Assembly: GCA_032622095.1 (NCBI GenBank)
Contig: CP136064.1
Span: 143,547,954-143,611,953 of the forward strand
DNA from: Siphonodentalium dalli
Taxonomy: Eukaryota > Mollusca > Scaphopoda > Gadilida > Siphonodentaliidae
DNA length: 64,000 bases
Reading direction: 5' to 3'
Below, one piece after another: positions 19,831 through 57,409 of this stretch. The number at the start of each line of letters is the position of its first letter. Position 1 is the first letter of the stretch. The notes under the pieces are model-generated. The model searched no databases. It was not told the DNA's origin and saw only the letters and a list, made by a program, of their open reading frames with translations. Position numbers and translations under genes: made by a program.

Positions 19831-22292
19831 AGTGTCAATGACACTGTAGCTCAACTTAGGTAGGGGAATAATTTAATGGTTGACAGTAAATGGAGGAATA
19901 GGAAAGGTGCTAATAGAAATGTCTAACCTGCTCCAAAGGATTTAGTGATGCAAAGAGTAAAATACAAGATGGCTGCTGGTGGCCATTTTTTTTGACCAAT
20001 TGACCCCAAAAGAACTCGTTCCCATCTACGTATAATTCTTAACATCCATGACAAATTTTATGAAGATCTGACCAAAGCTACGACCTACAAATTTCATGAT
20101 GATCAGACGAACAGTACGACCTGTAGACCGCGCCAATGGATTGAATTTTGAAATCCAAGATGGCTGCTGGCAGCCATGTTTTTTGGCCGAATGACCCCAC
20201 AATGATTCGTTCCCATCTACATGTCAATGTCAACATTCATGACAAATTTCATAAAGATTAGACCAAAGGTACAACCTGTAGCCCGTGCCAAAGGATTTAG
20301 TCATGCAAAGAGTAAAATCCAAGATGGCTGCTGGCGGCCATGTTTTTTGGCCGAACGACTCCAAAATCACTCGTTCCCATCTACATGTCAGTGTTAACAT
20401 CCATGACAAATTTAATAAAGATCAGACCAAAGGTATGACCTGTTGCCCACGCCAAAGGATTTAGTCATGCAAAGAGTAAAATGCTGGTGGCCATGTTTTT
20501 TGACCGAATGACCCCAAAACGACTCGTTCCCATCTACATGTCATTGTTATAATTCATGACAAATTTCATGACCATCTGACCAAAGCTACGACCTGTAGCC
20601 CGCACCAAAGGATTTAGTCATGCAAAGAGTAAAATCCAAGATGGCTGCTGGCGGCCATGTTTTTTGACCGAATGACCCCAAAACGACTCGATCCCATCTA
20701 CATGTCATTGTTATCATTCATGACAAATTTCATGATGATCACACGAACAGTACGAACTGTACCCCGCGCCAATGGATTGAATTTTGAAATCCAAGATGAC
20801 CGCCAGCGGCCATGTTTTTTGCCGAATGACCCCACAATGATTCGTTCCCATCTACATGTCAATGTCAACGTTCCTGACAAATTTTATAAAGATTAGACCA
20901 AAGGCAACCTATAGCCCGCGCCAAAGGATTTAGTCATGCAAATAGTAAAATCCAAGATGGCTGCTGGCGGCCATGTTTTTTGGCCGAACGACTCCAAAAT
21001 CACTCGTTCCCATCTACATGTCATTATTAACATCGATGACAAATTTCATGATGATCAGACGAACAGTATGACCTGTAGCCCGCTCCAATGGATTGAATCT
21101 TGAAATCCAAGATGGCTGCCAGCGGCCATGTTTTTTGGCCGAATGACCCCAAAATGACTCGTTCCCATCTACATGTCAATGTCAACATTCATGACAAATT
21201 TCATAAAGATCAGACCAAAGGTACGACCTGTAGCCCGCGCCAAAGGATTTAGTCATGCAAATAGTAAAATCCAAGATGGCTGCTGGTGGCCATGTTTTTC
21301 CGCCGAACGACCCCAAAATCACTCGTTCCCATCGACATGTCATTGTTAACATCCATGACAAATTTCATGATGTTCCGATCAAAGCTACGACCTGTAGCCC
21401 GCGCCAAAGGATTTAGTCATGCAAAGAGTAAAATCCAAGATGGCTGCTGGCGGCCATGTTTATTGGCCGAACGACCCCAAAATTACTCGTTCCCATCTAC
21501 ATGTCAATATTAACATCCATGACAAATTTCATGATGATCAGACGAACAGTACGACCTGTAGCCCGCGCCAATGGATTGAATTGTTTTTTGGCCAAATGAC
21601 CCCCACAATGATTCGTTCCCATCTACATGTCAATGTCAACATTCATGACAAATTTCATAAAGATTAGACCAAAGGTACAACCTGTAGCCCGCGCCAAAGG
21701 ATTTTGTCATGCAAAGAATAAAATCCAAGATGGCTGCTGGCGGCCATGTTTTTTGGCCGAACAACACCAAAATCACTCGTTCCCATCTATATGACAGTGT
21801 TAACATCCATGACAAATTTCATAAACTTCCGACCAAAACAACGACCTGTAGCCCGCGCCAAAGGATTTAGTCATGCAAAGAGTAAAATCCAAGATGGCTG
21901 CTGGCAGCCATGTTTTTTGGCCGAACGACCCCAAAATCAATCACTCGTTCCCATCTACATGTCATTATTAACATCAAAGGCAAATTTCATGATGATCAGA
22001 TGAACAGTACGACCTGTAGGCCGCGCCAATGGATTGAATCTTGAAATCCAAGATGGCTGCCAGCGGCCATGTTTTTTGGCCGAATGACCCCAAAATGACC
22101 CGTTCCCATCTACATGTCAATGTCAACATTCATCACAAATTTCATGAAGATCAGACCAAAGGTACAACCTGTAGCCCGCGCCAAAGGAAATTGTTGACGG
22201 ACACACAGACACACGCGCACACGCACACACGGACACACGGACGCCAAACCATGGCAATAGCTCAAACTTACAAAAGTAAGTTGAGCTAAAAA
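19831..22292 (+). mobile_element. Hairpin-ended satellite element, family 1 (Helentron-associated type)
   Basis: The 5' end is a perfect 15-bp palindrome AGTGTCAATGACACT (19831-19845) followed by TAGCTCAACTTA (19847-19858). The body is 14 satellite units, then an ACAC/ACGG-type microsatellite (22197-22243), then a terminal hairpin (22258-22288) whose distal arm TAAGTTGAGCTA is the exact reverse complement of the 5' subterminal repeat, then A's. No coding capacity. Palindrome, subterminal inverted repeat, tandem core and 3' hairpin fit the description of Helentron-associated non-autonomous elements and the bivalve tandem-repeat elements. Confidence 0.7.
19935..22190 (+). repeat. Satellite array, 14 units of ~130-165 bp in two subtypes
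   Basis: Each unit has CCAAGATGGCTGCTGGCGGC, CATGTTTTTTGGCCGAA, CTCGTTCCCATCTACATGTC and CATGACAAATTTCAT. Subtype A opens GGATTTAGTCATGCAAAGAG and subtype B opens GGATTGAATTTTGAAATCC. The order is A B A A A B A B A A B A A B, with starts near 19938, 20131, 20293, 20457, 20610, 20773, 20925, 21088, 21245, 21408, 21572, 21698, 21863 and 22031. One A unit (20457) and one B unit (21572) carry internal deletions. Short ORFs across the array are not genes. Confidence 0.92.
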
Positions 22293-23943
22293 TGTATAAT
22301 TTATAATATAACTAACAAGATGTATGGGATAGAATAATCTCATCCACAGGGCCACATAGCTGTGCTGGAAATAGGTCGTATCGAAATATATGGCCCCTTG
22401 AGTTATGTTTTTTATTGTGACGAAGTCATTGTTAGTTAAATACAAGTATGGTCTGAGTTTTCTAGATGAAACATAGCATGAGCTAAATTTCCTTCCATAA
22501 GTATGGTGCCATAATAACTCAGTTTAAACATGATCACCTCCATTCCAATTACTCTTCCACCCCACAAGTATAGTTAAAATTTACACCATCAGAGAAAAGA
22601 ACATGACATACAGAACATGACAAACATTGTGCCAAAGATAAACAATACTTGACCAGGGAGACCATTAAATTCATATTTATTAGCTTTGAACATCACATCA
22701 GTTTATGGACCACAAAGATGAATTAAGCAAAATGGATAACATATAGATATAGATACCTTGCCATCCTCATTAAAGGGAGCTTTTAAATCAGCACAACACA
22801 ATGCTTCATGAATCCAAATTTAACATAAAATCCGAAAATTCCATGTTAACTATTAAAGTGTGACACAAACAGAGAGGTCAGCAAGTTTGACAGAACTAGT
22901 ATTGTAAACACTACACAAATGTGCAATCCAAAGTAGGAATCCAAAACAAATGACTGAATCACTCACATTATGAACAGATAGATAAGTCTGTAGCCATGCC
23001 AAGAATCTAAATAGGCCCTTCTGGGTCAAAGAGTGAAGATTCCAGATATACCTCACTAACTTATAAGAGGGCAACGCACCCAAACACGAGGTACAAATAT
23101 TCCGAGATTGTATAATGCACTATCACTTTTGTGTGTGGATATAATCAATATGCCTTGTGAAATGACAAGTGTACACAAACGCTTTCGTCAGCGGGGTGTC
23201 CGGACAACCCCGGACTAATTGCCGGTATGGTGCTGGAGAATTTCGCTAATACAAAAGTCAATATCACATAAGAGATTGAAATCCAGATACATGCAGACGT
23301 CGTGTCCGAGGGACTTGAGAATGAGAACAGTGACACTGAGAAATATCCGAGCTACGCTTGACAAAAAACTTCAGCAAATTTACTCAATGAATATTCAGCC
23401 AGGTGGATGTATGCGGAGTACATGCATTCTTGCTTTATCAACCTATTAGGGAGTACCTGTTGATGTGTGCTGTCAACAGTGAATGGGAAACAGTGGGAGT
23501 TATATATATTAAGTCTCCTCCTCTGGACATGTTTATAGGGGACCTTCACCACTCATTGTTATACTGAGATGTTCACTAATTTATTCTGTCACCTTCCTTA
23601 ATGCATGTGAATAAGGAATGTTGGAGCTCTTGAATACTGTTAGGAAATGGTTTATAGGTAAAGTGTCCAACTCCTGGTCATAAACAATGTGATTTAATTG
23701 TTGTTAGCTGCTGTTAGTAGTGACTTTATAAGTATACACAAATTTATAATGGTAATCCTGTATATATAATATGAAAGAATGGCTACTGAAGCAGGTTCAA
23801 ATACATCAACATTTCTTTTAAAATCCCAGCTAGTATTAAAAGGAGGCCAATAAGGAAGAAACGGCCCTGCTAACCTTCATAGAATGGAGAGACAAAACTG
23901 GAAGTATAGTCAACTCCAGTTAAATTGCGCATCACATTTCGGG
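22293..23943. other. Anonymous DNA, weak coding hints near 23.2-23.5 kb
   Basis: No family recognised. Around 23230-23450 (plus strand) one frame reads an acidic peptide (ADVVSEGLENENSDTEKYPS) and then NLLNEYSARWMYAEYMHSC with two interrupting stops. It could be an old coding relic but is too weak to call. Confidence 0.35.
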
Positions 23944-23947
23944 TAAA

Positions 23948-24232
23948 ATTAAAAAATTTCATTTATCAAGTTGGAATTTTATGAATAAATTATACCTCAT
24001 ATCGCTCAGAATATATCACTTTAACGCTTCTAACTCGCATCGTTCTGTTTCCGGTGTGACTACGTCACCACCAGAATACACCTGCGTAAATCAGTTTAAA
24101 ACTTGGCATCCGAGGAGCCAAGAAAAACTCATTGAAAGGGAGGTGTGGGGGGGGGGGGGGGGGGGGGGTTCACGGATATGGGGTAGGTATAATTTATTCA
24201 TAAAATTCCAACGTGATAAATCAAATTTTTTC
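23948..24232. repeat. Short inverted-repeat (MITE-like) segment at the left end of copy A
   Basis: ATTTATCAAGTTGGAATTTT at the left end is inverted at the right end (about 24190-24232). It contains a 22-G run at 24147-24168 where copy B (near 52800) has only GGTGGGTGGG. Confidence 0.75.
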
Positions 24233-24412
24233 ATTTTATTCCATAAATTATCCTAACTCATATTGCTCAGAAGATTTCCAGAGCTCTGTCATGCTGTGAT
24301 ATGATGAGGTTTTCTAATCTGGTGGTTATCCTCTGGATGGGTTCAGTTCATATGAAAATATATTAAACAACCCATATACCATTAAATATACCGTATATAA
24401 TTATGTACACAG

Positions 24413-24645
24413 CATCATCGGCTCACATTTGTTAGAATGCATCAAAACTGTTTGAAACATGTTCAACGCTTGATGCCTCTAACTGCAGAAAAAGGAATCC
24501 ATCCATCATGCGAATTCACAAAGTTGATAAACATCTACACAATCATAATGTCTACAACACTTCAGTTGTAGAAGGTTCAACCTCACGCAAATATAATTTT
24601 ATGAATGTATTTGGCTGCGACAAATCAGCAGCAAATATTTGTTAA
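24413..24645 (+). pseudogene. Unknown ORF relic of copy A, frameshifted
   Basis: Counterpart of the ORF at 53060-53349. One base and then four bases are missing relative to copy B, so the frame is lost. The downstream stretch still reads KVDKHLHNHNVYNTSVVEGS and FGCDKSA. Protein not recognised. Confidence 0.35.
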
Positions 24646-24696
24646 ATAAACACTTTTGAACAAAGACCATGAAGGGGCCTCGAGAAAGAATAAACA

Positions 24697-25086
24697 TTCT
24701 TAGAGCACAATCCCATTGTTGCAATCGTTCCCTGATTTTGGTAAAGCACACCAATTTCCAAGGCTGGCGAAGGAATAGTTCAATGATTATCCCATTGTTA
24801 GTCACCCACAACTCATAACAAACAAATCGCACGGGCGCTTCAAAGTGGGAACAGTCCGTGTTGTTTCGGACATATCTATTCATGTTCATGTTAATCACGT
24901 TTTTGGGCGTGGCTAACCGGCTATTATGCCCAATCGCGGCCAGCGCACGGCAAATTTCCAGTTTATTGCATTATGTGTGATCAATTGTGCTCTAAGTCGG
25001 TCAGAGCACGCGGATTGTTCTTCACCAGAATAAATCTCGTCTCCGACTCGATTGATTCTGGTAAAGAACAATTCTTGTGCTCTAAC
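24697..25086. mobile_element. 390-bp MITE with TTAGAGCACAA ends
   Basis: Ends are TTAGAGCACAA (left) and TTGTGCTCTAA (right). Extra GAGCAC/GTGCTC words and a TTCTGGTAAAG(A/C)AC motif lie inside. Copy B reads straight through at the matching place (about 53356), which confirms an insertion. The palindromic TTA at each end makes a Harbinger-type TWA target possible, but the flanks do not settle it. Confidence 0.7.
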
Positions 25087-25295
25087 CATTACTTGATCAG
25101 TTACAATCCAGCTTGAAATTGTCTGTGAGGATCACGTATTTGTCAGAAATATATTATTCTCCTGACAGCTCCTGATGAACAATACTTGTTTTCTGTAAAT
25201 AAATGACAATAGATCTGTACAATGTTCAGGTAGTTGATCATCTAAACTATCTAAAAACTAGTATACATGTATATATTTTGCTCAGTAGACTCGAT

Positions 25296-26170
25296 TTTGA
25301 GGTGAACCTAGAACAAATTAGTTACAAGCTGTTTTTGGTGTCATTTTATCGGGCAGAATCTGGGGAACAATATATCCAACATCAGCTAAAATCCGCTTTG
25401 GGGAAAATTTCTACAGCTCATTGAAATGGGGTCCTATTTTTTATAACTTTTTGTGTAAATTTTGCTGTTCCTTATTAGTCTAGTCAATATGATGGAAAGA
25501 AAAACCCAACCATGAACAAATTACTGTGCAATGTCGTTTGGTGTGTTTGAATGTGACTATATCCATATGATAACATAACCAAAATCGCAATGAATCCCAG
25601 GGTGGGAAAATCGTAATTTTTGGGTCAAAAGACAGGAATATGTAAACAAAAATGGTGAAAATTGTAATTTTCTGGTTGAGACTCATATTGTAAGGTGAAC
25701 TTATATTAAATTAGTAACAAGCTGTTGTTGGTGTTATTTTGTTGGGCAGAATCTGGGGAACAATATATCCAAATTTCGCTTTGGGGAAATTTTCTATATC
25801 TTTGAAATAGGGTCCTATTTATGGTTTTTTTGTGTCAAGTTTGCAGTTCCTTATTAGTCCAGTCAAACGGATGGAAAGAAATGCCAAACCGTGAAAAATT
25901 TGCTATGCAATGACTTTTGGTCTTTTTGAGTGTGACTATACTCATATAATAACATATCCAAATCTGGTGAAAATTGGAATTTTGTTAATAAACAAATCTA
26001 CCAACCATAAATGTTCAGTCGAGTTCCCTGACTGCCAAATGTGACCACATAATAACATATCCAAAATGGCCATGCGTTTATTGAAGGGAAAGTCGTTAAT
26101 TTTGGATAAAAATGAAGAAAATATGTAAGAAAATGGTGAAAATTGGAATTTTTGTCTGGGAACCAGGTCG
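25296..26170. repeat. Tandem duplication inside foldback element 1
   Basis: Two ~400-bp copies (from about 25296 and 25690) share AGTAACAAGCTGT, GGGCAGAATCTGGGGAACAA and TCCTTATTAGTC; the second is more diverged. Confidence 0.8.
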
Positions 26171-26599
26171 GCCAAAATGCTTCTCCAGACTGGGGCCCCA
26201 GTATTAATCTTGATCCATTTTTTCGTAAGGATGTCTGCTCCAACTAATTTGACGCTAACATGTGGCCGTGAATGTTACGGGGCAATATGGCGGCAATTTC
26301 ATGGAGTGTACTACCATTCACTACAGGGTCCTCTAAATGTATTAATGTGACAGAAGCCTGCAACAAAAAACCGCATTATTCCTGTTGCCATAGCATAATT
26401 ATGCCTGTCATTTTGTTCATAATTTGACCATAAAACTATAAAATGGCGAATCCTAATCCGTTATAGAAGTCATATGCCGAGGATTTGACAATTCGGTGTC
26501 TAAACAGTTTTCAAAATGGCAGTCGGAAGTGAACAATTGAAGTGTTTTTTTTTTGTTGTTTTTTTTTACCAAATCTTACGATATCGTATAGCCAATATG

Positions 26600-27685: not shown

Positions 27686-27689
27686 TGAT

Positions 27690-33010: not shown

Positions 33011-33390
33011 GTAGGATATACTGCACAGGAAATTTTCCGCCATTTTTTTCCGCAGACAAAGACGAAAATCTCTGGTAAATTGAGGACATACTCTAGCCAA
33101 TTTACAAGGCATACAATAATGTATAATCCTCATATAAAGTGTAGATCGCCAAGCTGGATGCTTTAAATGTGAACAGTATCCATAATAAAATAGAGGAACG
33201 ATTAGAAATGATGTTGCTCCAAGGACGCAAAGTAGATAAACTGATTTACACAGGGGTATTCCGGTGGTGACGTGACATCAGTGAGTGATTAAAAAAGTCA
33301 CACCGGAAACAGAACGATGTGAGTTAAAGTGATATATTCTGAGCGATATGAGGTAGGTTAATTTATGGAATAAAATTCATTTGCACCAAA

Positions 33391-33769: not shown

Positions 33770-34777
33770 TTGGATTACTTAACGTTAAAAATGGGTTCAA
33801 ATCAATGTCTGTGGGAGGACATTAATGAAGAGGAAATGTATACATCTACTGAGGACTTAACATTTGTAAAGTCGACAGAAACTACAGATAAAAATGATCA
33901 GGATAATATCAACGGTCCAGTTAAACGATTAAACTATGCGCTTGATGTAGACAAAGCTAACGAACGAAAGGTAAACTCCTTGAAAGACATTATGCGTAAA
34001 GACAACGGAAAGGTGCTTGTGGTGACTTTAGATACAACAAAATTCGAACGATATCGTAAAGGAATTACAGATAGATATTGGAACTCTGACTCAGACTGTG
34101 TGAGGTCGAATGCTAACTGGACTACACAAGTTGAGGAATCAGACAACAGTGTTGTGGATAAAATTACAACATTCAGGACTAAAACTTCAATGGCAACTCT
34201 GCATGTGTATCGCACAAAGAACAAGTTGATGATCCAAGTGACAAAACGAAACGTTCACTGGTGGGTGAAGGATGAGTTACCCGAGATATATAAACTTAGT
34301 TTTAATGATTTCGATTGTAAAAATATGGATATCGAAGAAGTTCTAAAACTCATATTCAGCGAGGACAACAGTATTAAAGACACCCCACAAAAAGCCATGA
34401 GCGAAGCGACATATGAACACCCCCACAAAGCGAATGACATCAATATACGACCTCAAGACAGGTGCATCACACGCCAATGGCTTAACGGACATTCAGAGAA
34501 CCATACAGCACATCCAAGATTCTGTAGACGATATCAAGACAAAAGGTATCAGCAAAGAAGATGTCACATGTACTTCGATGCCAATTAGGACACCAACACG
34601 CGACAGTGAAAATGACAAGTTAAATTCACTTACAAATAGAATAGCGAAGTTGGAAAACGACTACAAGACGGTTGTAATGGAAACAAAAGGTCAGCAGACC
34701 ACAATGTCCCCCGAAAACGTGGCAAGTCGATGCCGCTTTGTTGAAGAAATTAAAAAAAAATGTTGAAATTTTCTAAG
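33770..34777 (+). pseudogene. LINE-type ORF1, N-terminal part
   Basis: Open from Met 33770. Residues ~75-185 contain LVVTLDTTKFERYRKGITD, then SMATLHVYRTKNKLMIQVTK and WWVKDELPEIYKL, resembling the N-terminal domain of ORF1 proteins whose C-terminus is an SGNH esterase. A frame change near 34410-34440 moves the reading into LTDIQRTIQHIQDSVDDIKT and LNSLTNRIAKLENDY, a coiled coil. A run of nine A's near 34750 gives another slip. The frame is then broken by an inserted element at about 34778. The rest of the ORF is found at 35692-35754 and 38146-39300. Confidence 0.65.
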
Positions 34778-35691
34778 TTGAAAAAAAAAAAAAAAAAACG
34801 TCATCTAATACATGTTGCACATCTCCAATAAGTGGGTAACAATAATCTGAAGTTTCAAATATCTACGATCAAAACTGTAGGAGAAGTTGATTACACCACG
34901 AAGGTACCCTCATACAGAAAAAGGGTTAATAACTCCGTCAAAAAATAATTTTTCCGTCATCTATATACATGTTGCACATCTTCAATATATGGGCAACAAT
35001 ATTCTGAAGTTTCAAATCTCTGGGATGAAATCTGTAGGAGATGATTACACCATGAAGATACTCAAAAGTGTGACGGACGGACGGACGAACGGACGGTACA
35101 ACGGACGTACCAACAAATGGGTAGATATGTGGCTTCGACCTATGTGGCTAGAAATGGTAATGTGGCTTTAGTTTTTATGTGGCTTCTCAAGTAGCCATAA
35201 AATTTTAAGTGGCTATCAAGTAGTAGATAGTGATAAAACTCCAGATTATGGATTCATAACATGTTGGAATTATAGCAGAAGAAGCTGATTAAAACTCAAA
35301 AACTTGCTCACAGCAACTGGGACAGTGGAATAGGAGAAACTGACAGGTCCGTGATTGGGTGGCTAGCCACATAAATGTCTTGTCAGTGTCCGACATCTCC
35401 TATTGACGGGTCATGGATGTCTAAATCGATGGACTTTTTTTTCTCCAAATTTTGAGTGACTACAAAATTAAATAAGCTGATTAGGCCAAATAGATCATTT
35501 TAGAACGTCCATCTGAAAGCTGTTACGTGGCTAGCCACGCAACGGAAGTTATGCACATAAATATCCATTTTACACAATCTTAGCCACATAAGTAGTCATT
35601 AGTAAACACGGACGGAACAACGGACGGACGGAAGGACGGACGAACGGACCCCGTTTCTATAGTCCCCCAAAAGTAAATTTTTCGGGGGACA
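34778..35691 (+). mobile_element. Hairpin-ended element, family 3
   Basis: Two ~140-bp units (about 34800-34920 and 34921-35060) share ACATGTTGCACATCT(T/C)CAAT and AATCTGTAGGAGA-type words. They are followed by a GACG/ACGG microsatellite (35071-35100, resuming 35609-35650) and a terminal hairpin GTCCCCC...GGGGGAC (35662-35690) running into AAATAAA. The microsatellite is itself split by a ~500-bp insertion. The ORF1 reading frame resumes directly after the hairpin, which fixes the right edge. No 5' palindrome was found. Confidence 0.6.
35104..35607. mobile_element. ~500-bp insertion with TATGTGGCT ends
   Basis: Sits inside the ACGG microsatellite of family 3. Left end TAGATATGTGGCT and right end AGCCACATAAGTA are inverted, and GTGGCTA/TAGCCAC words recur inside. 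That pattern is hAT-like. No clear target duplication. Confidence 0.4.
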
Positions 35692-35754
35692 AATAAACAT
35701 TTGAAAAATGAAGTGAAAACTATGAAACCAAAAATTAAAGAGCTTAATAACAAG
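35692..35754 (+). pseudogene. LINE-type ORF1, middle coiled-coil fragment
   Basis: Between two insertions one frame reads NKHLKNEVKTMKPKIKELNN, a heptad-like stretch that continues the coiled coil interrupted at 34778. This island shows that two separate elements entered the same ORF about 60 bp apart. Confidence 0.6.
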
Positions 35755-36859
35755 ACAGTCAATGACTGTGGAGACACTCACCTACAGTAAAGACTGAGAG
35801 GAAAGTGACTTTGAAGACTAAAACAGTCAGTACTTGTCAAAATAACTTAAGACAAGTAGTTCTAAACAGGAACATAGCTGGGAATTCGCTGATAAGCCGG
35901 GCTCCTCACCTTGAAATCTCTAAGTGCACACTATTGTAAAATCTCCAACCCCCTTTTAAACAAGATAATCTTAACCACACCACAGCCTAAGTTCACAAAA
36001 TTCCTTTTGCACATCCCTCTTATGTTGAAATTTTACAACTGGAACCGGTGCTTCAAGCTCCAAACTTTTGGGATTTTCCAACCTGACATCTTCCATAAAG
36101 TTAAAAGTTGTGGCCCCTTTTGGTATAACAGTTTAACCTGAAGTAGGCATATATGGACTGTTGGTTTAAAAACATACTGGTTGGAAAATAAAATCAAACT
36201 ATGAGAACTATTCTAACGTATTTTTGGTGTGAAAATCTAATCTACAACTAATGTATCAGAAATGAAATTTTTAAGAGGAATATATATCTTATCGTACCAG
36301 TAGCGAACAGCATAGATAGAGGTAGTGTGGGTGGGGCAGAGCTAAATCTCTTACCTCTGCCCCTATTTGAACAAACATGAATCCCCATCTCTGATATCTA
36401 TTCATCTAATAATTTTAAACAGTCGCTTTTAAGAGTTGAAGTTAATTGATTTTCGAAAAAGGACCCCATTGGAACAGATCTAAACATGCCACCCAAGGAC
36501 CCTGCATACACAAATAAAAGCTAAATAGACTTGATGGTTCTTGAGATTTAATAGTTGTTAGAATTACTATGGAGGGAAAACGTTATGGCCCTGGCATCTT
36601 TCCTATTTGACCTGATGAACTTATTTGAACAAATCTGAATGTGAGTCACAAACAGGTAGGGAATTCATATAGATCTCGAAAAGAAAATTATTGTTGATGG
36701 ATGTATGGTCAGAACAATGGATGGAAGGACACTCTGACAGACCAACAGTTTTAATCCAATATACCCCCCATTTTTTTTTCCATAATCAGGTATAATGAGT
36801 TCACATAGATAAGTGGTTAAGAAAATACTATTGGAACAGCCAAGCGTGTTAGTGTGTCT

Positions 36860-36938
36860 GAGGTCCCAAAAGGGTGAATGTAGTGATGCTATTCTGTAAG
36901 GTGGGCTAGCATCACCAAATTCACCATCTGGGAACCCA
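36860..36938. repeat. Imperfect hairpin, ~33-bp arms, copy 1
   Basis: The left arm AAGGGTGAATGTAGTGATGC pairs with GCATCACCAAATTCACCATC. Confidence 0.75.
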
Positions 36939-37133
36939 ATTTTACTTAGTCCTCAACTGCTATGGGAGACTAAGACAGATAGAAGTTCTCCAGCTGAAGT
37001 TGGTGACGTATGACAGTATGCGCACCCATTTGACACCTCAATTATGCATTTTAGAATCTGAACAGAAGGGAAAAAGCTGCTAAACATGTCAATTTGAGAC
37101 TCTAGATACTTCCCAGAAGATGAGGCCTAAGCA

Positions 37134-37219
37134 GAATGAGGTCCTCAGAGGGTGTATTTGGCGATGCTAGCCTGCCGTGCAGGGTAGCATAATTGAATCA
37201 CCCTCTGGGAACCTCATTC
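37134..37219. repeat. Imperfect hairpin, ~40-bp arms, copy 2
   Basis: GAATGAGGTCCTCAGAGGGT pairs with ACCCTCTGGGAACCTCATTC. Same family as the hairpin at 36860. Confidence 0.8.
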
Positions 37220-37589
37220 TACAAATGCCTGACACACTTAATTAAAGCTTGGAGAAAAGGAATTTAATCTGATATTAATGACCAGTGTATTGTAAACAAT
37301 GATGGTGCTACATTGACAACTTTAGAAAACAAATGTTCAACACTATTAATCTCATTTAAATTATGAATGACATGAATTACACTCCCTGGGGACTCTGCCA
37401 CATAAGTTCTGTTATCTATCTATCTGGCATCAGATTCTCAGCCCTGTGGTTCAGAGCAGAGATGGCTGGTAGTGGGAATGCAAGGATATTAAAAGGAACT
37501 TACTGAACATTTCTGTACATCTGTCTGTTCATGTTTTCTCCCAAACCCCTGATTTCAACCAAATTTAGTGGGTTGACTAGAGGTACCTA

Positions 37590-37606
37590 CCCCCCCCCCC
37601 CCCCCC
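37590..37606. repeat. Poly-C tract (17 C)
   Basis: Uninterrupted C run inside the family 2 element. Confidence 0.95.
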
Positions 37607-38145
37607 GAAGATGTAATGTCATAAGTTCTTCAAAATTTGAATTAAATGTTTTTTATTTTATTTTTGTTTAAATATTTTATTTAATAAAAAAATATATTTA
37701 TTAAAAATAAAATATATTTAAAAAAAATTTTGGGTTAAATTGAGCAATAAGTTAAATATAAAAAAAAAATTCTTTTCCACATTTGACCCAGTGACCTCAT
37801 TTGAACAAATCTGAACCACAGTCACCTCATACCAAATATGAACCCATTCGGCCCGACGACTTCAGAAAAGAAGTCGTTTTAAGAATTACTATGTGGAAAT
37901 GTGGAAAAATAGTTATGGTCCTGACATCAAAACTATTTGACTTGGTGACCTCATTTGAACAAATCTGAATATGAGTCACCTGGGGAACATCCACACCAAA
38001 TATGAACCCTTATGGTTCCAGAAGAGAAGATGTTCAAAGAATTGTTGACGGATGGACGGATGGACGGCTCGACGGATGGATGGACGACGGACGAGGAGGG
38101 ATGACTATAGCTCCACTGGAGACTTCGTCTCAGGTGAGCTAAAAA

Positions 38146-44937: not shown

Positions 44938-45022
44938 ATCACAAACAGGATTTAATCACAAACAGGATTTAATCACAAACAGGATTTTATCACAAACAGG
45001 ATTTAATCACAAACAGTATTTG
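44938..45022. repeat. 17-bp minisatellite, ~5 units
   Basis: AATCACAAACAGGATTT repeated head to tail with small changes. Confidence 0.9.
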
Positions 45023-45244: not shown

Positions 45245-45305
45245 AACGAGAGACCGATCACGATCGGCAGATGTTTAACCCATACCTTGGCGATAGTGAA
45301 TAGCT
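45245..45305 (+). repeat. Isolated 5' end of a family 4 hairpin element
   Basis: ACGAGAGACCGATCACGATC then GGCAG and ATGTTTAACCCATACC match the 5' end of the 55252-57409 element. Similarity fades after about 45305 and no matching 3' hairpin is nearby, so it is a truncated or divergent copy. Confidence 0.7.
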
Positions 45306-45898
45306 ATAACTGATAATTTGTCTAAGATATGATCACAGGAATCCATATATCAGTACCCAACTTGAAATCAAAAGCTCAAATAATTTGTCTTAAGAAGGGG
45401 TTAAAGTATTTGGAGTTGGGGAAGAGTAGTTTTAAATCTCATAACTATGTCCCTGTTCACCCAAGAACCTCTCACTGTGAGTTCCAACAGTTTAGTGATT
45501 TCGGAGGATATGTTTAGGAGTTAAAGTTAACTCATTGGAAGCAAAAGTGATAAACCCTTTTGTCCCCACATCCGGTTGTAGCTAGAAATCTGATTGGCTA
45601 CAACGCCACGTTTAAATCACCATGTCCCCCGTCACCCTTGACAGCGGGGTATAAGAGAACGTGCGCCAAACATCGGGGGTATATGAGCATGTGAAACATC
45701 GGGGGTATATGAATGACCCTTGATCTGGCAGTTTCCACCAATCGTGACGTTGCTCTCGCACGCCGAATTTGACGTCACCTGACGCCGGGTCCTTAGGTCA
45801 GCTACTGAATTATTCTTATTGGTGTGAATTAATCGGATAACCTATGAAAAACACACTTAAATTAAGGAGACATGGTTATTGTTGTGGGGACAAAATCG

Positions 45899-46038: not shown

Positions 46039-46083
46039 TAATAATCTCCGCCACTTTTGACCTGCCAGATATTTAAAATTCAT

Positions 46084-46473: not shown

Positions 46474-46480
46474 CTTCACA

Positions 46481-47605: not shown

Positions 47606-47612
47606 CTTCACA

Positions 47613-50600
47613 CATTACAATGTTTTACAAGTAGCTTAGACACTAAAATCCATAACCTTCAATGTTAATCTTTTAAGCTCTCTGTGGCCCCTAAAATTCA
47701 ATCAACCATAACAATATGAACAAAAGGGAAAATAAGATTCCTAGAAATATTAACGACATCTACCATCTTGATTTTCAAAACAAGGCATCATCTGCAATGG
47801 TCATGTAGATTTATCTGCCTGTTACCCTTTGCATAGATAAATCATATTGGCTGTCAGCCATTATTTTAATTTCAAATTGAATGCATGTGTCTGAAGGGTT
47901 AATATATTTTTCCAAAATCAATTAATCAGTCAATATCAAAATTGATAGAAGTGAATAATGTGCAAAGATAACCATAGATAAGAAATATGAGGAAGAGTAC
48001 ATTATAGCATGTGTCTATGGGAAGCTTGTAAAGGGTTAATTATTTTATAAGCAGATCATTGGAATATAGAAGACACTTACATAGGTGAGGGGTCCTTTAG
48101 GAGAAACAAGAGACTCATGCTGCCATTAATCAAATAATCAAATTTGACAGATAAGATAAACAATTAGCCAACCACAATTGTTGTTTATCTTTGACTTCAT
48201 CTAACCAAACCCCACAGCTATGTACCATATGTCATCACTCAATTAATGACAAGATTTCACTTGGAATGACACCATCTATAAAATGTATTCTCATATACTC
48301 TGGATATCGGATGTTCACATGGTAATTTATTTATATCATTATAGTACATGTAACTATTGCAATAAAATCATCATATTTTCAAAATTAATGTTATAAAACT
48401 AAAACAAATGAAGTGTCAATGATAATTTTGTTTTTATTATTTTATAATTTGTTTTTATTATTATAAAAGTTAAAAAAAATAATTAAATAATTTTTTTTGG
48501 TTAACCCACTTTTTGGACAAAAACGTGCATGTGCCCCCTGGGCTTACTGACGGGTGTATACGGTAAGCAATCTAAAAAAAATCTAAATTTATTTTTGTTT
48601 CGATAACTCCTTTAAAATAAATTGGATCAAACCCATATTCGAACTCGATCTGTATTTTGAGCTGAGAAACTCACATACCAAATTTGGTTCCAATCAGATA
48701 AAAAAAAATTTAGTTATCGAAGCATCCGTGAATTCTATAAAGTTGTAATTTGGCAGTGAAATGTCAAATTGGTATTTTGGGATTGTTTTTATACAACATG
48801 GCCATAACATTCTAAATAAACATCCAGTAACGTATTTATAAAGCTGTTTATAATAATAAAGTTTTATGCTTCCAGATGCATGATTTTGAAGTTTTTGTTG
48901 ATATGCTTTCCCCTACCCCATTTTCTGCCATTCAAATTTGGAGTAGGTTTCCCAAATGATGAGTGAAATCCAGTGACATTCATTGGTGTAACCATTGAAA
49001 TGCTATTTTCTCAACAAAAATGATTTAAAGGATTACACTGGTGTAATTCTTCTCAGTCATTATAGATGCCCACTAGTCCAATGAGCATGTTGCCGGAAAA
49101 AAATTTGTGATAGGCATTCCGTAACTGAAGTTATGCCAATTCATGTGATTTAATATTACTTTATGGAATAATATGCAGTCTGCATCATACGCCGAAAAGA
49201 TTTTTGTGATAGGCATTCCGTAACTGAAGTTTAATATACTGATTCATGTGATTGAATATCACATTATGAAATAATATGCAATCTGAATCATAAATCTTCC
49301 TTCATGTGATGTCATATGAGCGACTACTAGCGACACGCAGTGTCAAACTTGAAAGGCAGTCGCAATTGGCTTTTATTTACTGATTGTTTTTAGCAATGTG
49401 CTCAGTGGATTAGCGGGCATTGAAAATGATTGAGAAAAATACACTGGTGTAATACTTTGAGAGGCAAGATCAAATAATTTTACACAATAAACTTTCGTTC
49501 ATTTTTCTTAATATACACAAAAACCTATAAAATTTGACAAAAATGCCCCACAATAGCATTTTCGGAAAAGAGGCTATAGACTAATTAAAGAGTTCATAGG
49601 GCCACAATTTAATTATATTCACCAATGTATTTGGAAATTCCTTCACAATTTGTTCAATCTAGTATTCTTAAAAGGTTATGAGAAAAGCAGAGCATATGGA
49701 TATTAATTTATGGAGTTTATATGCATGACCTCAAATATGGCATTTCATCATGAAAGTTCTGTGTCAGAGGCAAATTTGGTTATAAAGTCCATACAATGAA
49801 ACCCACATTTTGTTTGAGAATATTTTATTTTTCTTAATCATAGATGCACATAGAAGTCATTTTTATTGTGTTTTATATAGTGATGAACTTACTAAAATAG
49901 TGAAAAAGTCCTTCATTTTTCTCTAGTCTTTTAAATAATTGACCATAAAATACGGATTTTGGCTATAATTATGAGAAATTGAGGCCCAGAAATCAGGTAA
50001 ACTCTCGTTTTTGAAAGCACACAAATTGAAAAATACTTAACAAATCTGGGAATGGTTTTCTGTTCTGGAATCAGGAAAGTGAGGTCGACAGAATAAACAT
50101 GAAATTGGAAGGACATGTGAAATTGAATTTTTATACACATTCATGTATATCCATAAATTGATGAATTGATCAAATTTTCCCAAATTTATTTCACGAAATT
50201 CACCAATTTTCCGAATTTTGCTGATTTTTAGTATGTTGTTTATGGAGGTTTTATGCACCTACTCAAGCAAAAAAAATTAGTTCTGAATAAAACCATAAAT
50301 GCACTTGACTATAGCGACGAGGCGACCTTGGTTGCCGAGTCGCTATGTGGCCACGAAAACTACCCGAGTCGCGATACATTAATCGGATCAAATACATTTT
50401 GTATATAAAACGTTTATCTACCATTGGTGTGACAGAATCCACCACACAAATTACATCTTAGGATTTTCTTAAATGTCAAAATTGATGGATTTGTGTCCGA
50501 CGATTAGCTTTCTTGAGTAAATTCTCCCAACATGCAAGTTCAAGCGAATATGCCTATATTAAAACGGAAATTGAATTCAATGGACAAAATCTCTTACACC

Positions 50601-51679
50601 TGCAATTTTTCTATAATTGTATAATAAATACTCAACAAATACATATGTTAGTTACATTTTGATATGGTATACCATAATGCCCATGGTGGTATAGGCAATC
50701 AAATAATGTTAAAACCTAGGAACTATAGTATGCAAGAATATATGTTGGAATGTTGTTTTGAATTTTCAAGCGATTGATGTGACATCAGTTCATTCATGAT
50801 TTTGAACCAGTCAATGACGTCATGCACGCCTTGTACCACAAATGCAGTAACGATTAGTGTTGAAATGACTAGCGTATTTCGTAGTCAACTAGTCAGTGGC
50901 CTTTAAATAGTCAACTACTAGTCAACTAGAAGACACCTACTATATACATAGAAAGATCAAAAACCAACACAGGATTATCAAAGTATTTTCTTAGACATCA
51001 ATGATCTGTCCATTTCACAGCTGTTTGTCATCATAAATTTATTAAAACATGCATATGTATCATTATATTTATCGATGTTGACAGCCTTATAGACAGGTAA
51101 GTATCATGAACATCACTCATATCATATAATATTGGGGTAAACTTCACAGTTGTTATGTTCGCGAGCGATCCCGAGAAAGTGACAGTCATAAAATACTATA
51201 GAGAGACTTCAAAACAGCTGGATGCAACAAGTTTACTAACTTCCGGTGCATGCGCAGTCTATTTTTCGCCCAATAATATCACAACTGTACCATTTTACGC
51301 AGTGTTCAGTGAGCTATTCCGCTATATACCATGTAACCCTTGGTCTACTTTTAATAGGGGTGTGTGGTTGTATGACAGTGAGTCATTGACTTGTTTAGAA
51401 ATCTGACTGATATTTTGGCATAATCCAGCACAATATAAATATAATTATACCAGTACCCAGTTAGGATGAAGCGAGCACATCGGAATAGATTTGATCTTGA
51501 ATCAGTGACCGCATTGTCAAAACAACATATCTATTGCAACGTAGAATATCGTAGATCAAAGGCACCGTATTTTGAATATGGGAATGTGTACAGTAAAATC
51601 TGCTGTTGCGACTTAGCTGAACAATGATTGTTCCAATCGATGAGACATCAGAAGGGTCCCTTTTTCAGGCAAATAACAT
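47613..51679. other. Anonymous AT-rich DNA with scattered repeats
   Basis: No gene recognised. One isolated monomer of the family 4 satellite lies at about 48585-48735 (ATCAAACCCATATTCGAACT). A ~105-bp tandem duplication lies at 49099-49290 (TTGTGATAGGCATTCCGTAA twice). The ORF at 51155-51406 has no motif. Confidence 0.5.
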
Positions 51680-51838
51680 ACAGTTATGCCCTACATAATC
51701 AACTCCTTAACCACAGAAGAATTATGGGTAACTTTTCAGGACTTTTTTCGGAAATATGGCTTGTTGCCATTCATCGGAAAGCTCTCAGCGAGAGCTTTCC
51801 GATGAATAGCAACAAGCCATATTTCCGACTAAATAAAA
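51680..51838. mobile_element. Palindromic short element, copy 2
   Basis: Contains an 81-bp palindrome (51748-51828): two 39-bp arms with a single mismatch around a 3-base loop, built on CGGAAATATGGCTTGTTGCC and CGGAAAGCTCTC. A diverged copy sits in copy A at 32119-32270. Confidence 0.75.
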
Positions 51839-52567
51839 TAAAAATCTAAGTCAAATGCTTTCACAATTTGGACCAACAGCAAGCTTGGGGTTACCGGTAA
51901 CAGCAAACAAATACCTATGTATGTTGAGATCTTCAGGTTTATTTATATAACAAATAGTATACATTAGGGACCTAGGAATTGACTGAGACTGTCATGACAT
52001 GTGTGGCACCTATATGTTATGAGGAAGAGAATATATTTAGTGAGTCTCTGTGAAAATACTTGAGAATGCTGTAAAGTGTATTCAATGTAAGCTGTTTTCG
52101 TCATTAAAGAACATATGTGAGAAAAACATTTTGTGAATGCAGTTGAAAGAGGAAAATATGTTGAGTCACAACATGTGACTAGTCAATGAAAATGTGTTAC
52201 ACTATTTTACTAAAGCAAGTTTAATAATGATAGTTCACCAAAGAAATTGCTTGAAATTTCATTTATGTTGTATGAGCAGAATACTTAAGATATTATGTAT
52301 CCTAAGGAAACCACAATAAAGAGAAAAGTATCAGTTCATTGAGAAAAAATTCAGTTGAAAGGACTAGGCTCGCTTCAACCACCAAATTATGTATACCTCA
52401 TTTGAAAGAAGGGATATCAAACAATACCAACGTGGAATATTTCTTACCAAACTCACTATATATATTGGGCTACAAAGCTTCCTTTCTTTGTTATAATTTT
52501 CTGTGCAATGACCATTTAAAAACAACTAGAAAAATAGGCCCCTTTTTTGTTTGTGAACTGGTAAATT
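51839..52567. other. Anonymous spacer
   Basis: No gene or repeat recognised to the left of copy B. Confidence 0.4.
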
Positions 52568-53059
52568 CTATGACTACAATTAAAAAAATTTGATTTATCA
52601 AGTTCTAATTTTATGAATAAATTATACCTGTACCTCATATCGCTCTGAATATATCACTTTAACACTTCTAACTCGCTTCGTTCCATTTCCAGTGTGACTT
52701 TTTCAATCACTCACTGATGTGACGTCACTCCCAGAATACCCCAAATAAATCAGTTTACAACTTGGCGTTCAAGGAGTAAAGAAAAACTCATCGAAGGGGA
52801 GGTGGGTGGGTTCGCGGGTATGAGGTAGGTATAATTTATTCATAAAATTACAACTTGATAAATCTAATTAAAAAAATTTATTCCATAAATTAACCTACCT
52901 CATATTGCTCAGAATATTTCCAGAATATTTCTGTCATGCTGTGATATGATGAGGTTTTCCAATCTGGTGGTTATCCTCTGGATGGGTTGAGTTCATATGT
53001 ATATATATTATGCAACCCATATACAGTTATATATATATATACCATATATAATTATGTTC

Positions 53060-53349
53060 ACAGCATCATCAGCTCACATTTGTTAGAATGCATCAAAAAC
53101 TGTTTGAAACGTGTTCAACGCTTGATGCCTCTATATAGCCGCAGAAAAAGGAATCCATCCATCATGCGAACTCGCAAAGTAGATAAACATCTACACAATC
53201 ATAATGTCTACAACACTTCAGTTGTAGAAGGTTCAACCTCACGTATATATAATATTCTGAATTTATTTGGCTGCGACAAATCAGCAGAAAAATATTTGTT
53301 AACGAACACATTTGAACAAAGACCACGAAGGGGCCTCAAGAAAGAATAA
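53060..53349 (+). CDS. Unknown ORF of composite repeat copy B
   Basis: An open frame that follows a possible acceptor (ATTATGTTCACAG) and reads SIISSHLLECIKNCLKRVQR, then RRKRNPSIMRTRKVDKHLHN, LFGCDKSAEKYLLTN and FEQRPRRGLKKE before a stop at 53347-53349. It is basic, with no recognised domain. Copy A has the same region with two frameshifts (24413-24645). Differences between copies are not clearly biased to synonymous sites, so selection on a protein is not shown. It could be a relic of the unit's own gene. Confidence 0.3.
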
Positions 53350-54285
53350 GCATTCTTAATCAGTTACAATCCAGCTTGAAATTGTCTGTTGAGATCTGTG
53401 AGGTTCACGTATTTGTCAGAAATATATTATTTTCTCCTGATGAACATTACTTGTTTTCAGTAAATAAATGACAATAGATCTGTACAATGTTGATCATCTA
53501 AACTATCTAAAATATAGTATATATATTTGGCTTGGTTATAGCTGTGATTACATGAGACAATATGTCCTGTTTTTGACAAGGCATGTATGATATGCATTAT
53601 ACCACTTTGTATTTTAGCCAAGATACATGTATCTGATCTGTGCATGAAGATTGCATTGGATGATGCCCGGTCTTGATATTAATGACATCACTATTTTATT
53701 GTCCTAATGAGAATCTGAATTACCGGCACATGCAGAAGCTTTCCTCTCGCTGTTCATTTACCTCAGGCCAGATACTTGAAGACGTCATCAAGGATTGGTT
53801 ACACCTAATGGTAACATTGATATCCGCATTATGTAGACATGTGTCTGTTTTATAGGCCAACTGTCATTTTTTATGGCGAAATGCAGCCACACGTGAGCGA
53901 CCGAATTAGTCAAGACATTGTGTCGATAGAGAAGATATCTCTAAATGTGAGTTTTCAGTGCATCTTCAATGGTCTAACACTGCCTCGTGCACAATTGAGA
54001 GTTTTCACCACAGAACCAAGACTCTAAGCAGTGTATATAGCTACATGTTCCCTGTACATACTGCTGCCTGGCAACAAAAAATCAATAGTTTCGGCTGTGA
54101 GTGTATATTTTAACCTTAATTGTAGGTAATCCATAATGAGAAGGGCCGTGTAGATGAATCAGCATTTTAATACATAATATAGCTGCTCAAAAATCAAAAA
54201 TAATCTCGGCCAATGGCCTTCCTCAGCAATGACACACTGAATGTATATTTTAAATGTACCTCTCGGCCAGTATATAGTAGCATTG

Positions 54286-54346
54286 AAGAATGTTTATTGG
54301 CAATGCACTTGACCATGAAGAATGTTTATTGGCAATGCACTTGACC
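54286..54346. repeat. ~30-bp tandem duplication
   Basis: GAAGAATGTTTATTGGCAAT then GCACTTGACCAT, twice head to tail. Confidence 0.9.
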
Positions 54347-54913
54347 ATTATCTCAGATAATTAAGGAATATTAAAAATTCTTCTGCATCTTTTAACACAG
54401 GAAAAACAGCTGGTTTTTATATGAAACTGTGGGATGATGGATCAGTTCCGTTCAAACAGTAAGTGGCGACTGTTCTCAGTAAGGATAAACCAAGAATAGC
54501 TACCTCTCCGTTACATTCGTAATTAAGTGCATCGGCTCTGAACATTCGTATAAGAAAACCACTGAAGGTCCGATTGGAGGTGCTTTTCTTTGCTGAATTT
54601 TTTTATATATCAACTTGAAGCACACTATCCGTATCAAATTCTCTCTTATTAGATTAATATAGCGATTGTATTGTATCACTCTTCCTCGGCCTTTTCGCCA
54701 TGATTGAGTGTTCTGATACGAAATCAGGAGCTGATACAGATTTGGAGTTTGAACTCGAATAGAGATTATATTGTATCGCTCTTCTTCGACCTTTTTGTCA
54801 ATATCAAAATCTCTCACGTCAAGAGTTTTCAGGGATACTATTGCATCATAATCGTCTCGCTCTCCGTCGGCCTTTCGCCACGATTTGAGCGTTGCTCTGA
54901 TTCCACATCAGAT

Positions 54914-55195
54914 TCACAATCGTCTCCCTCTCCGTCGGCTTTTGCCATGATTTGAGCGTTGTGATTCTACATCAGATTCAGTTACCGTCCAAGTGTAAAC
55001 TTGATGAAGTCCTGTATCTAGGCATAGAGGCACTCGCGATGTGGACTGTCCCTCTTCTCCTTTAGAGTCTTCAAGGAATGATTCTGCTGAGCTACCCGAG
55101 ATTAAGTCCGTGTCTAGTCTATACCATACTGGCACTAGCACTGGGGACTTTCTGTTCCTGAATCTTGATTTTGATCTACAAGGTGCTGGAGCCAA
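54914..55195 (-). other. Conserved minus-strand open frame of copy B
   Basis: Reads WYRLDTDLISGSSAESFLED, then SKGEEGQSTSRVPLCLDTG and TVTESDVESQRSNHGKSRRR. The corresponding peptide is partly kept in both tandem copies of unit A (32.5-33.0 kb). Acidic then basic; family not recognised. Listed as a possible coding relic, not as a gene. Confidence 0.3.
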
Positions 55196-55251
55196 AGTAG
55201 GCTATACTGCACAGGGAATTTTCCGCCAGTTTTTTCCGTGGACAAAGACAA

Positions 55252-57409
55252 ACGAGAGGCCGATCACGATCGGCAGATGTTTAACCCATACCTTGGCGAT
55301 AACGATTAGCTATTTTCATAAATCCTTACACCAACCTTTTCAACAATTCACACCTTACCATTAAAGCTACTCGATCCGATTAAGCACCCCTCAGTTACTA
55401 TTTATTTGGCTTCAGGGGTAACAAATATTTTATTCAAATCGAGGAATCCATTCATCAAATTCAGAGTAAGCAGATATCAATTTTTTAAATCCATTATCTT
55501 TAACCACCTGGAATATTTAGTGGCCGTATGAAAGTCGATGAAGATGGATAACTCTATAATTAAGTGGCTTTTTTGTGTCAGATATATGACAAAGCAGCAA
55601 AATTTCATTGTACAAATGTTGATAAATAACAGGTTTTGGGCAATTTTATACTATAGTGGACTGTGGTTAGCATTATTTTTGGGCAATTAATCGATTCTGA
55701 TAACTGAAGCGGAATTGTTGTTGGAATCTGATGATATGGGGACCATCAAATTGGATTGAGTACCTTTAAGTTCACAAGTGGCATAAGCCTTATTGGGCAC
55801 CTTCCATATGAACATGGATGTGGCATTTGATTCCAATCCATTAAGTCAGTTTAAAATAGATATATAGTCTTATAGAGCTCAGTTAGACAGAAGAACCGTA
55901 CATAATAGTTAAAGATATTAAAAAAAAATTGTAAAATATGATTGATAATGATTGGATATAACATACTTTAATGCATAATTATGAGATAACTAGAGGTTGG
56001 ATTTGAGATTGAAGATATTAAATTCATTACATTGGATAGCATACTGTATGTCTATGGAATGGGTGTGTTAATTTTATTAATATTTTAAAGCAATTAAACC
56101 AAATGACCCTCTCTATACAGGTTAGGGGTCTGTTATCATAAACTATGACTTGAAATATAATATAATCAATGACAAATATTTGAGTTATTAAATGAGATAG
56201 CAAGGGGTTGATCTTAATCACACTAATGAACTGATCAAAATAGTCTATAAATGCATGTATATGGATTTAGAAGCCCACACAATAAGTCAGTCTCAAGAAT
56301 ACAAGCAACATTATTATTATCCTGCACCCCGAATGCAATAGATGGAATTTCAAAATAAGACAATTCCTCTAATGTTTTAAGAAATCCTTACTGAACCTGG
56401 CTCAAAGTGAAAGATATAATTTAATATCTGCCTATCAGATATCATTTGTCTATGGAATGGGTTAATTTTAATCCCAAAATCCATGCAAGACCAGGGAGCT
56501 ACTAGTATGTTGGAGTTGATCAATCCTGAGAAGTCACTCTCAACACACTATGGAAATGCAATAAACAACAGATAGCTATTAAAGTGCAGCAGTGAATATC
56601 AGATTTCTTTATCAATAATAGAGATGATCTCTAGTCTCCATTACTGATACCACAGCTGTAAGCTGCTACAGTTATATATTTTAAGCAAATCTCAAATCTG
56701 TTCAATTCTTAGTTAACAAGAGAGAGAGAACTTCATGGCTTTGTAACTGGATATACTATCTCTGTGTCTGCATAGCATTGTGAAACTGATTTATTAGATA
56801 TTATCTAGACAGTGCCACCTGTGTATCTTTGATATATTTTAGCCATGAATAAAATAATCAAAGGGCCATAACCCCATTAAAAAGTACTGGATCAAACCCA
56901 TATTCGAACTTGATCTGTATTTTGAGTTGAGAAACTCACATACAAAATTTTGTTCCTATCAGTGAAAAAATTGTAGATTTATCGAAGCATTCATGAATTA
57001 TAAGTCAAAGGGCCATAACTCCATTAAAAAATATCATATCAAACCCATATTCGAACTCGATATGTATTTTGGGCTCAGCAACTCACATACCAAATTTGTT
57101 TATGGTCAGATAATTTTTTTTTTCGTTATGGCAGCATGCATGAATTCTAAGTTGAAAAAGGGCCATAACTCAGTTAAAAAAAACTCTGATCAAACCCATA
57201 TTCGAACTCGATCTGTCTTTTATGCTGAGAAATTCATATACAAAATTTGGTTCCGATCAGATATAAAACGTTCGAGTTATCGCACCATGCATAAAGTGTC
57301 TACAGACAGACAGACAGACAGACAGACGGACGGACGGATGGACTAATGGCGAGTGGTCAATCCGGACAACGACACTATGTTTACCATACTATGGTATGGG
57401 TAAACATAA
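55252..57409 (+). mobile_element. Hairpin-ended element, family 4, with empty site in copy A
   Basis: The 5' end ACGAGAGGCCGATCACGATC contains a 14-bp palindrome (55260-55273), then ATGTTTAACCCATACC (55277-55292). The 3' part has three ~145-bp units (56858-57300), an ACAG/ACGG microsatellite (57301-57343) and a terminal hairpin (57377-57407) whose distal arm GGTATGGGTAAACAT inverts to the 5' repeat, then A's. Copy A reads GACAAAGACGA|AAATCTCTGG at 33063 without the element, so the boundaries are confirmed and no target duplication is made. The interior 55310-56855 shows no gene. Confidence 0.8.
56858..57343 (+). repeat. Family 4 satellite units and ACAG/ACGG microsatellite
   Basis: Three units, each with AAGGGCCATAAC(C/T)C, ATCAAACCCATATTCGAACT and AACTCACATAC(A/C)AAATTT, lead into ACAGACAG and then ACGGACGG repeats. 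Confidence 0.9.

Follow-up and report, generated by a model that had tools for sequence, protein, structure and literature searches.

Elements of the HINE type (non-autonomous Helentrons) that carry satellite-like repeats are known from Crassostrea gigas, in which 11 of them, some related and some independent, were described together with their empty sites (PMC7492417), and comparable elements were described in flies and mites as DINE-1 and HINE-Mo (PMC4067079). To compare these systems with a mollusc locus, we analyzed a stretch of 64,000 nucleotides of the scaphopod Siphonodentalium dalli (assembly GCA_032622095.1, contig CP136064.1; C4:143547954-143611953 within a 2.23-Gb genome of 9 contigs; hereafter the window). 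An earlier note on this DNA had recognized four unrelated satellites packaged in the same hairpin-ended architecture, and had proposed that a single Helentron-like machinery spreads them. Our analysis indicates that these four blocks are, with little doubt, four HINE families (F1 to F4), most likely copied by a rolling-circle mechanism and carrying different satellites; the Helentron/HINE reading was upheld by TT junctions, by a small number of empty sites, and by the presence elsewhere in the genome of further copies and of a Helentron-type gene.

Because the association of HINEs with satellites is already in print (PMC7492417; PMC4067079), we do not claim it as a discovery. The present locus extends to a large animal genome the finding that satellites can move as interchangeable cargo between rolling-circle transposon ends, and it provides countable marks of the mechanism, namely paired ends, fixed TT junctions and empty sites. 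It also offers candidate Helentron genes for these passengers, a kind of link that was left open by the C. gigas study.

Anatomy of the four elements

Read on the minus strand, all four blocks show the same order, including a T-run, a 5' subterminal inverted repeat (subTIR), its inverted copy, a GTC-type microsatellite, repeats, a 3' subTIR, a palindrome, a few bases and a final TT. This is the anatomy of a HINE, in which subTIRs measure about 11-15 bp and a microsatellite and/or central repeats are usual, though not obligatory. Canonical Helitrons begin with 5' TC and end with 3' CTRR; TC...CTRR ends were not found in the four elements, the aligned ends being the T-run and ...TT. The short tetranucleotide-type microsatellite, the terminal hairpin and the A's following it were present at all four places where the earlier note had put them. 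The polarity it had given to the elements was reversed, and its "3' hairpin" corresponds to the 5' subTIR plus inverted copy: we dropped that polarity after aligning both ends across copies, because the resulting order matches the published maps of C. gigas HINEs (PMC7492417) and DINE-1 (PMC4067079).

F1 occupies positions 19825..22292 of the minus strand, running from its 5' end at 22292 to its 3' end at 19825 with an uncertainty of a few bases at either limit, and its ends are conserved in copies. Its 5' terminus (22239..22292) consists of the T-run, the subTIR TAGCTCAACTTAC and the inverted copy, followed by the microsatellite (22197..22242; ACGGACAC on the plus strand), a satellite array with a period of ~164 bp (20151..22188; two rows in the output of Tandem Repeats Finder, TRF) and a 3' terminus (19825..19860) with the subTIR, the palindrome AGTGTCAATGACACT and the end TTCATT. 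F4 (55250..57412, minus strand, limits again approximate by a few bases) has a 5' terminus at 57350..57412 with the hairpin TTTTTATGTTTACCCATACC..., a microsatellite at 57302..57343, a satellite array at 56860..57292 (period 147 bp, 2.9 copies) and a 3' terminus at 55251..55292, where the subTIR GGTATGGGTTAAACAT and the palindrome are followed by the end CTCTCGTT.

F2, also on the minus strand, spans 34681..35693. Its start had been placed at 34778, which proved wrong: matches among genome copies start at 34677-34682, and the corrected limit of ~34681 restores the lost half of the F2 inverted repeat. The 3' terminus (34681..34720) carries the palindrome GGTCAGCAGACC and the subTIR GTCCCCCGAAAA, the microsatellite lies at 35608..35649, and the 5' terminus (35644..35693) forms a hairpin with CCCCC/GGGGG arms. 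A 497-bp stretch of F2 (35111-35607), flanked on both sides by ACGG repeats, is absent from two copies (L049 and L052). F3 (35749..38145, minus strand) has a 3' terminus at 35749..35771 with the palindrome ACAGTCAATGACTGT and the end CTTGTT, the subTIR being decayed in the window copy, a few diverged ~154-bp units on the microsatellite side, a microsatellite at 38047..38091 and a 5' terminus at 38089..38145 with the hairpin TTTTTAGCTCACCTGAGAC.

Of the tandem units of ~140-160 bp ascribed to all four elements, TRF recovered arrays of 164-bp units in F1 and of 147-bp units in F4, but no array in F2 or F3, which contain, respectively, about two diverged units and a few scattered diverged units. 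The ACGG/ACAG/ACAC-type microsatellite is present in every element, with types that differ among families (ACGGACAC-like in F1, ACGG-like in F2, ACGG/ATGG in F3, and ACAG then ACGG in F4). As for the claim that the unit sequences are unrelated, at least 17 of 200 shuffles reached the observed score in 11 of 12 pair-by-strand tests, the exception being a 29-nt motif common to F2 and F4 (0/200).

All four elements have the terminal hairpin, formed by the inverted copy adjoining the 5' subTIR, and at their other end a palindrome, whose arms measure 7 nt in F1, F3 and F4 and a short 4 nt in F2 (lengths given without a shuffle control). It had also been claimed that the distal hairpin arm of F1 and F4 matches the opposite end of the element. 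This was confirmed with the corrected boundaries, across spans of 60 + 45 nt, by a match of 12/12 nt in F1 and by 15 matches with one 1-nt gap in F4 (0/1000 shuffles each), and F2 gave 13/13 nt (0/1000). In an earlier test on longer stretches, the score was reached by 1/500 shuffles for F1, 123/500 for F3 and 1/500 for F4, and F2, within the boundary of the earlier note, showed no end-to-end match (452/500) until the copies shifted its limit. The end-to-end match of the F3 window copy was not significant (66/1000 shuffles). Among 12 F3 loci (L031-L042), both ends were recognized in 8, and a 9/10 match between GCTCACCAGA and GCTCACCTGA was present in 6 of these 8 and absent from 2. Since the window copy is not significant and only 6/8 copies match, F3 is the weakest member of the set.

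The proposal of one mobilizing machinery stands as one mechanism; as each of the four families has terminal sequences of its own, probably several related Helentrons are involved and not a single one. It is doubtful that a single Helentron moves all four families by reading hairpin shape instead of sequence, as could be argued from the layout common to all four and, by eye, from the core GTCAATGAC common to the F1 and F3 palindromes and the TAGCTCA common to their 5' ends. Against such an enzyme, a rule of at least 11 identical subTIR bases (PMC4067079), in an application to these elements that is our own, would split all four.

Genome copies, junctions, insertion sites and cargo

To define the elements across the genome, we fetched 14 F4, 14 F1, 12 F3 and 10 F2 loci, chosen from lists in which 40 of 632, 1,842, 1,991 and 1,819 candidates, respectively, had been scored; L001 (the window copy) and L002 were fetched as well, and two F1 loci with identical flanks (L029 and L030) represent one event. 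The ends of F1 to F4 align sharply across these copies, and the flanks diverge beyond the limit. The hairpin end was present in every F1, F3 and F4 locus searched. The far end was recognized in 13/14 F4 loci (not in L004, and altered in L006), in 11/16 F1 loci besides the window (L020 is without the outer part and L022 is cut by the fetched stretch), in 9/13 F3 loci (L036 is cut in the same way) and in 8/10 F2 loci; the remaining loci may be truncated, longer than the fetched stretch or diverged.

Genome-wide, the first 40 nt of the F4 5' end occur in 7,186 copies (3,562 + 3,624) and the 42 nt of the F4 3' end in 6,736 copies (3,370 + 3,366), both with up to 3 mismatches, and the 40-nt F3 5' end occurs in 8,548 copies (4,389 + 4,159), while reversed-sequence controls for these three ends gave 0 each. 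On C1, among 100 listed exact F4 5' ends, at least 37 are followed by one of 96 listed exact 3' ends on the same strand at a distance of up to 6 kb (median spacing 2,066 bp), the number being a minimum because the lists contain just the first exact matches. No such 3' end was found on the opposite strand, and 2 lay upstream. Also on C1, three exact F4 3' ends lie on one strand at 78331208, 78333135 and 78335057, with spacings of 1,927 and 1,922 bp, and these coordinates suggest that F4 elements are arrayed in tandem there.

Copies of F4 are also joined head to tail. Junctions in which 0-4 bases separate an exact F4 3' end from the exact F4 5' end after it were found 113 times genome-wide (48 + 65), one of them (C4:184378940) being inside a fetched locus (L014), whereas the heterotypic succession of an F4 3' end and an F3 5' end occurred 6 times (3 + 3), although F3 5' ends are no rarer. 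Of 100 listed F4-F4 junctions, 83 have TT alone between the elements and the other 17 have more T's. Such a fixed TT fits rolling-circle copying that reads past the terminator or makes use of a circle, and would not result from unequal crossing-over.

Next, unoccupied insertion sites were analyzed. F2 and F3 are neighbouring insertions, and a query made by joining their flanks had 16 matches, including 3 pieces of the window itself and 5 unoccupied paralogues that were nearly full length and 80-86% identical, in two sequence groups; the others were partial. An unoccupied paralogue of the F4 site lies within the window (33020..33200, plus strand), with 83% identity to the joined F4 flanks over 300 columns. 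F2 and F3 were inserted into short runs of A, or of T on the complementary strand, and no target-site duplication was found beyond the ambiguous A/T run at the F2 and F3 sites (5 paralogues) or at the F4 site (1 paralogue). Published HINEs likewise insert at TT without target duplication (PMC4067079; PMC7492417). The F2 and F3 insertions are hosted by a low-copy repeat family (33770-34588 and flanks), which includes a 272-aa open reading frame (ORF) without a Pfam match at E 0.001.

We infer the following course for the copying of these elements. A Helentron-type protein with OTU, Rep, PIF1 helicase and endonuclease domains would nick at the T-rich 5' end, and one strand would be peeled off during copying until the 3' subTIR and palindrome stop the process. 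The freed strand, or a circle made from it, would then insert between two T's without target duplication, and an occasional failure to stop, or the use of a circle, would generate head-to-tail copies joined by a single TT. Anything located between the ends would be carried along, in this case unrelated satellite arrays behind a GTC-type microsatellite.

Inverted repeats at the ends are also a property of miniature inverted-repeat transposable elements (MITEs) moved by a terminal inverted repeat (TIR) transposase and of foldback elements, and similar elements were formerly classed as MITEs (PMC4067079; PMC5139131). It is nevertheless very improbable that the repeats are TIRs in this sense, considering that they are subterminal and asymmetric, that the duplication typical of a TIR transposase was not seen at the F2, F3 and F4 sites, and that TT is fixed at most of the listed junctions.

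The cargo of F4 was analyzed by comparing the interiors of 13 elements that possess both ends, one from the window and the others from 12 fetched loci; L015, where a single 3' end serves two 5' ends, was entered twice. Mutual cover was 0.86-1.00 among the window copy, L005 and L013, 0.99-1.00 among L008-L011 and 0.69-0.88 between L003 and L007, and the L016 interior was covered to at most 0.25 by any other. The first and second of these types share 0.31-0.40 and the first and third 0.01-0.20; the interiors of L012, L014 and L015 partly overlap others (up to 0.68). The F4 ends enclose different interiors, of at least four types. In one of these elements (L007), the F4 ends enclose almost no F4 satellite, the window copy covering only 0.02 of the interior.

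For the microsatellite, we sampled every fifth of 100 listed exact F4 5' ends (C1 below 96 Mb), using a pattern that ends before the microsatellite. A GTCY block follows the 5' end in 19/20 cases and is first detected 68-92 nt from the T-run. The earlier note had regarded the block as a structural part rather than a by-product; it may be one, its regularity speaking for this view and the remaining copy (L102) against it. In L102, an exact 40-nt F4 5' end is followed by other DNA for ~2 kb, without microsatellite or satellite, and no F4 3' end was found within that distance. The microsatellite is a regular module of young F4 copies, which does not by itself show that it is needed. About 2 kb past this F4 5' end, within the region covered by L102 and L110 together (C1:85142921-85145000), there is a short stretch like the F1 3' region. 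Hairpin, microsatellite and satellite occurred independently of one another in single copies only (L102 and L007), and the reading that L102 and L007 might suggest, in which the three are independent neighbours spread by recombination, is very improbable, as the microsatellite lies so close to 19/20 ends picked regardless of it and the F4 ends are paired at ~2 kb on the same strand.

Helentron-type genes as candidate partners

A search with PF14214 gave at least 151 matches (150 of 457 candidates scored), and ten loci with weaker PF14214 scores (90-111 bits) and long open frames were examined. The H1 ORF, pieced together from two halves in the same frame, has 2,864 aa between stop codons and is predicted to encode OTU, DUF6570, Helitron_like_N, PIF1 and Exo_endo_phos domains, which is the Helentron set. 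Ends like those of F4, F3 or F1 were detected near the genes in 8/10 loci (matching thresholds of E 0.01 or 34 bits), with F4 ends in four loci of the H1 group, F3 ends in C8:4875k and C4:255311k, and F1 ends in C1:214418k and C1:169483k; C3:265652k and C1:61520k had no such ends at these thresholds. At 34 bits or more, 29 ends were found in ~97 kb of gene flanks, many of them mutual copies, and 9 in the 64-kb window, eight of which belong to the four elements.

The nearby ends are not exclusive, as F1 and F2 ends occur in the H1 group too, and F3 ends in the C1 group. This presence of several families at single Helentron loci agrees with one Helentron serving all four, whereas the ends nearest to the genes differ by group (F4 in the H1 group and F1 in the C1 group), a contrast limited by a further-upstream F1 3' end in the H1 group and by the F3 ends in the C1 group. 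The earlier note had called for a Rep/helicase element sharing the termini, and the genome supplied a gene with the required domains and family-like ends nearby, short of a complete element. Because complete element ends were not resolved, we propose these genes as the likely kind of partner and not as proven partners, and any assignment of a Helentron to a HINE is putative.

Some of the ends lie just upstream of the predicted start codons. In C1:214418k and C1:169483k, the inferred ATG follows 19 nt after the last matched base of a partial F1-like 3' end, and in C2:5304k, H1 and C8:164614k a partial F4-like 3' end lies 207, 215 and 214 nt, respectively, before the inferred ATG. As start codon we took an ATG that follows a pyrimidine-rich stretch with CAG; it was not placed in C3:300744k and is beyond the fetched stretch in the F3 loci. 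These 3' ends match at 27/36 (F1-type) and 30-33/42 (F4-type) positions, with the terminal bases unmatched, and in the F4-type gene loci another F4 3' end, this one of full length, lies farther upstream. Tentatively, and with the odds against it, Helentron genes may carry the 3' end signal of their own family in the leader. Such a signal could act as an internal terminator that shortens rolling-circle copying and gives rise to gene-less HINEs, or as an operator through which the Rep protein would control the gene that encodes it. The leader ends may also have arisen by chance nesting, followed by copying of the nested arrangement, given that only two independent groups show them and that the loci are full of HINE ends from several families.

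Other arrangements were analyzed and rejected. An LTR-like layout (HINE, gene, HINE; LTR for long terminal repeat) at C8:4875k was dropped, since the two blocks beside the gene align over no more than 159 columns, at 74%; by eye, the downstream block looks like a nested F3 HINE. Shorter Helitron-type ORFs were dropped as partners, the two stretches between neighbouring Rep domains being without F1 to F4 ends (best E 0.15). Near a Helentron-like gene, at ~110-145 of L061 (C8:4869782-4872282), an F2-like 3' end abuts, by eye, an F3 5' end in a heterotypic junction.

Several points weigh against the view that F1 to F4 are HINEs moved by Helentrons of this kind. No complete autonomous element bounded by any of the four end pairs was resolved in the examined loci, which are nests of several HINEs, and the domain search covers the H1 ORF only. 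H1 and C2:5304k are alike to the end of the fetched stretch, ~8.9 kb past the ORF, and an attempt to locate the 3' end of the H1 group by loss of matches was abandoned, as five matches stop at positions 3078-3090 of the minus strand of L080 with no recognizable F1 to F4 terminus. The F3 subTIR is weak, and the F3 junction pattern is possibly under-matched because F3 is more diverged. The junction counts are of copies and not of independent events, as a dimer could itself be copied, and the empty sites cover F2, F3 and F4, not F1. Finally, the fetched copies come mostly from the top of the hit lists and the queries contained the microsatellite, so the picks are biased to young, microsatellite-bearing copies.

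Further features of the window and comparison with known systems

Outside the four elements, the window contains a further F4 3' end (45245-45307; 63 bp, 94% identical) and a lone F4-like unit (48603-48737) without a matching F4 5' end nearby. F3 is represented once more by a diverged copy (57650-58453; 78-87% identical in pieces) that starts ~240 bp after F4, and its microsatellite and hairpin end were not matched in the window. Minus-strand ORFs at 6225-10520 gave a weak RVT_1 match (23 bits, below the family cut-off) and perhaps belong to a DIRS-like element. At 14637-15598, ~166-bp direct repeats with large inverted arms resemble a foldback structure.

Judging from the title of a 2011 paper by Coates et al., lepidopteran elements reportedly carry hitchhiking (GTCY)n microsatellites, which would place the GTCY motif on a mobile element, as in S. 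dalli. The pearl family (CvA, DTC84) and BIV160/Cg170 of bivalves, likened here by description only, are modular and have internal repeats, some of them satellite-related (PMC5139131). DINE-1 and HINE-Mo agree with F1 to F4 in their subTIRs, an inverted repeat near the 5' end (in DINE-1), the microsatellite, the 3' stem-loop and the TT target, with central repeats being optional; they differ in their hosts, and autonomous partners with shared ends were described for them (PMC4067079). In C. gigas, none of 10 autonomous elements could be related to its HINEs (PMC7492417), whereas S. dalli has Helentron-like genes with family-like ends nearby, though no complete partner. Although the sequences differ, Cg_HINE of C. 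gigas has the same parts as F1 to F4, including a 5' subTIR with a complementary inverted repeat, satellite-like central repeats, a 3' subTIR and a palindrome, as well as a GTCY, GTCC or GTCK microsatellite in several of its members and a preference for TT without duplication (PMC7492417).

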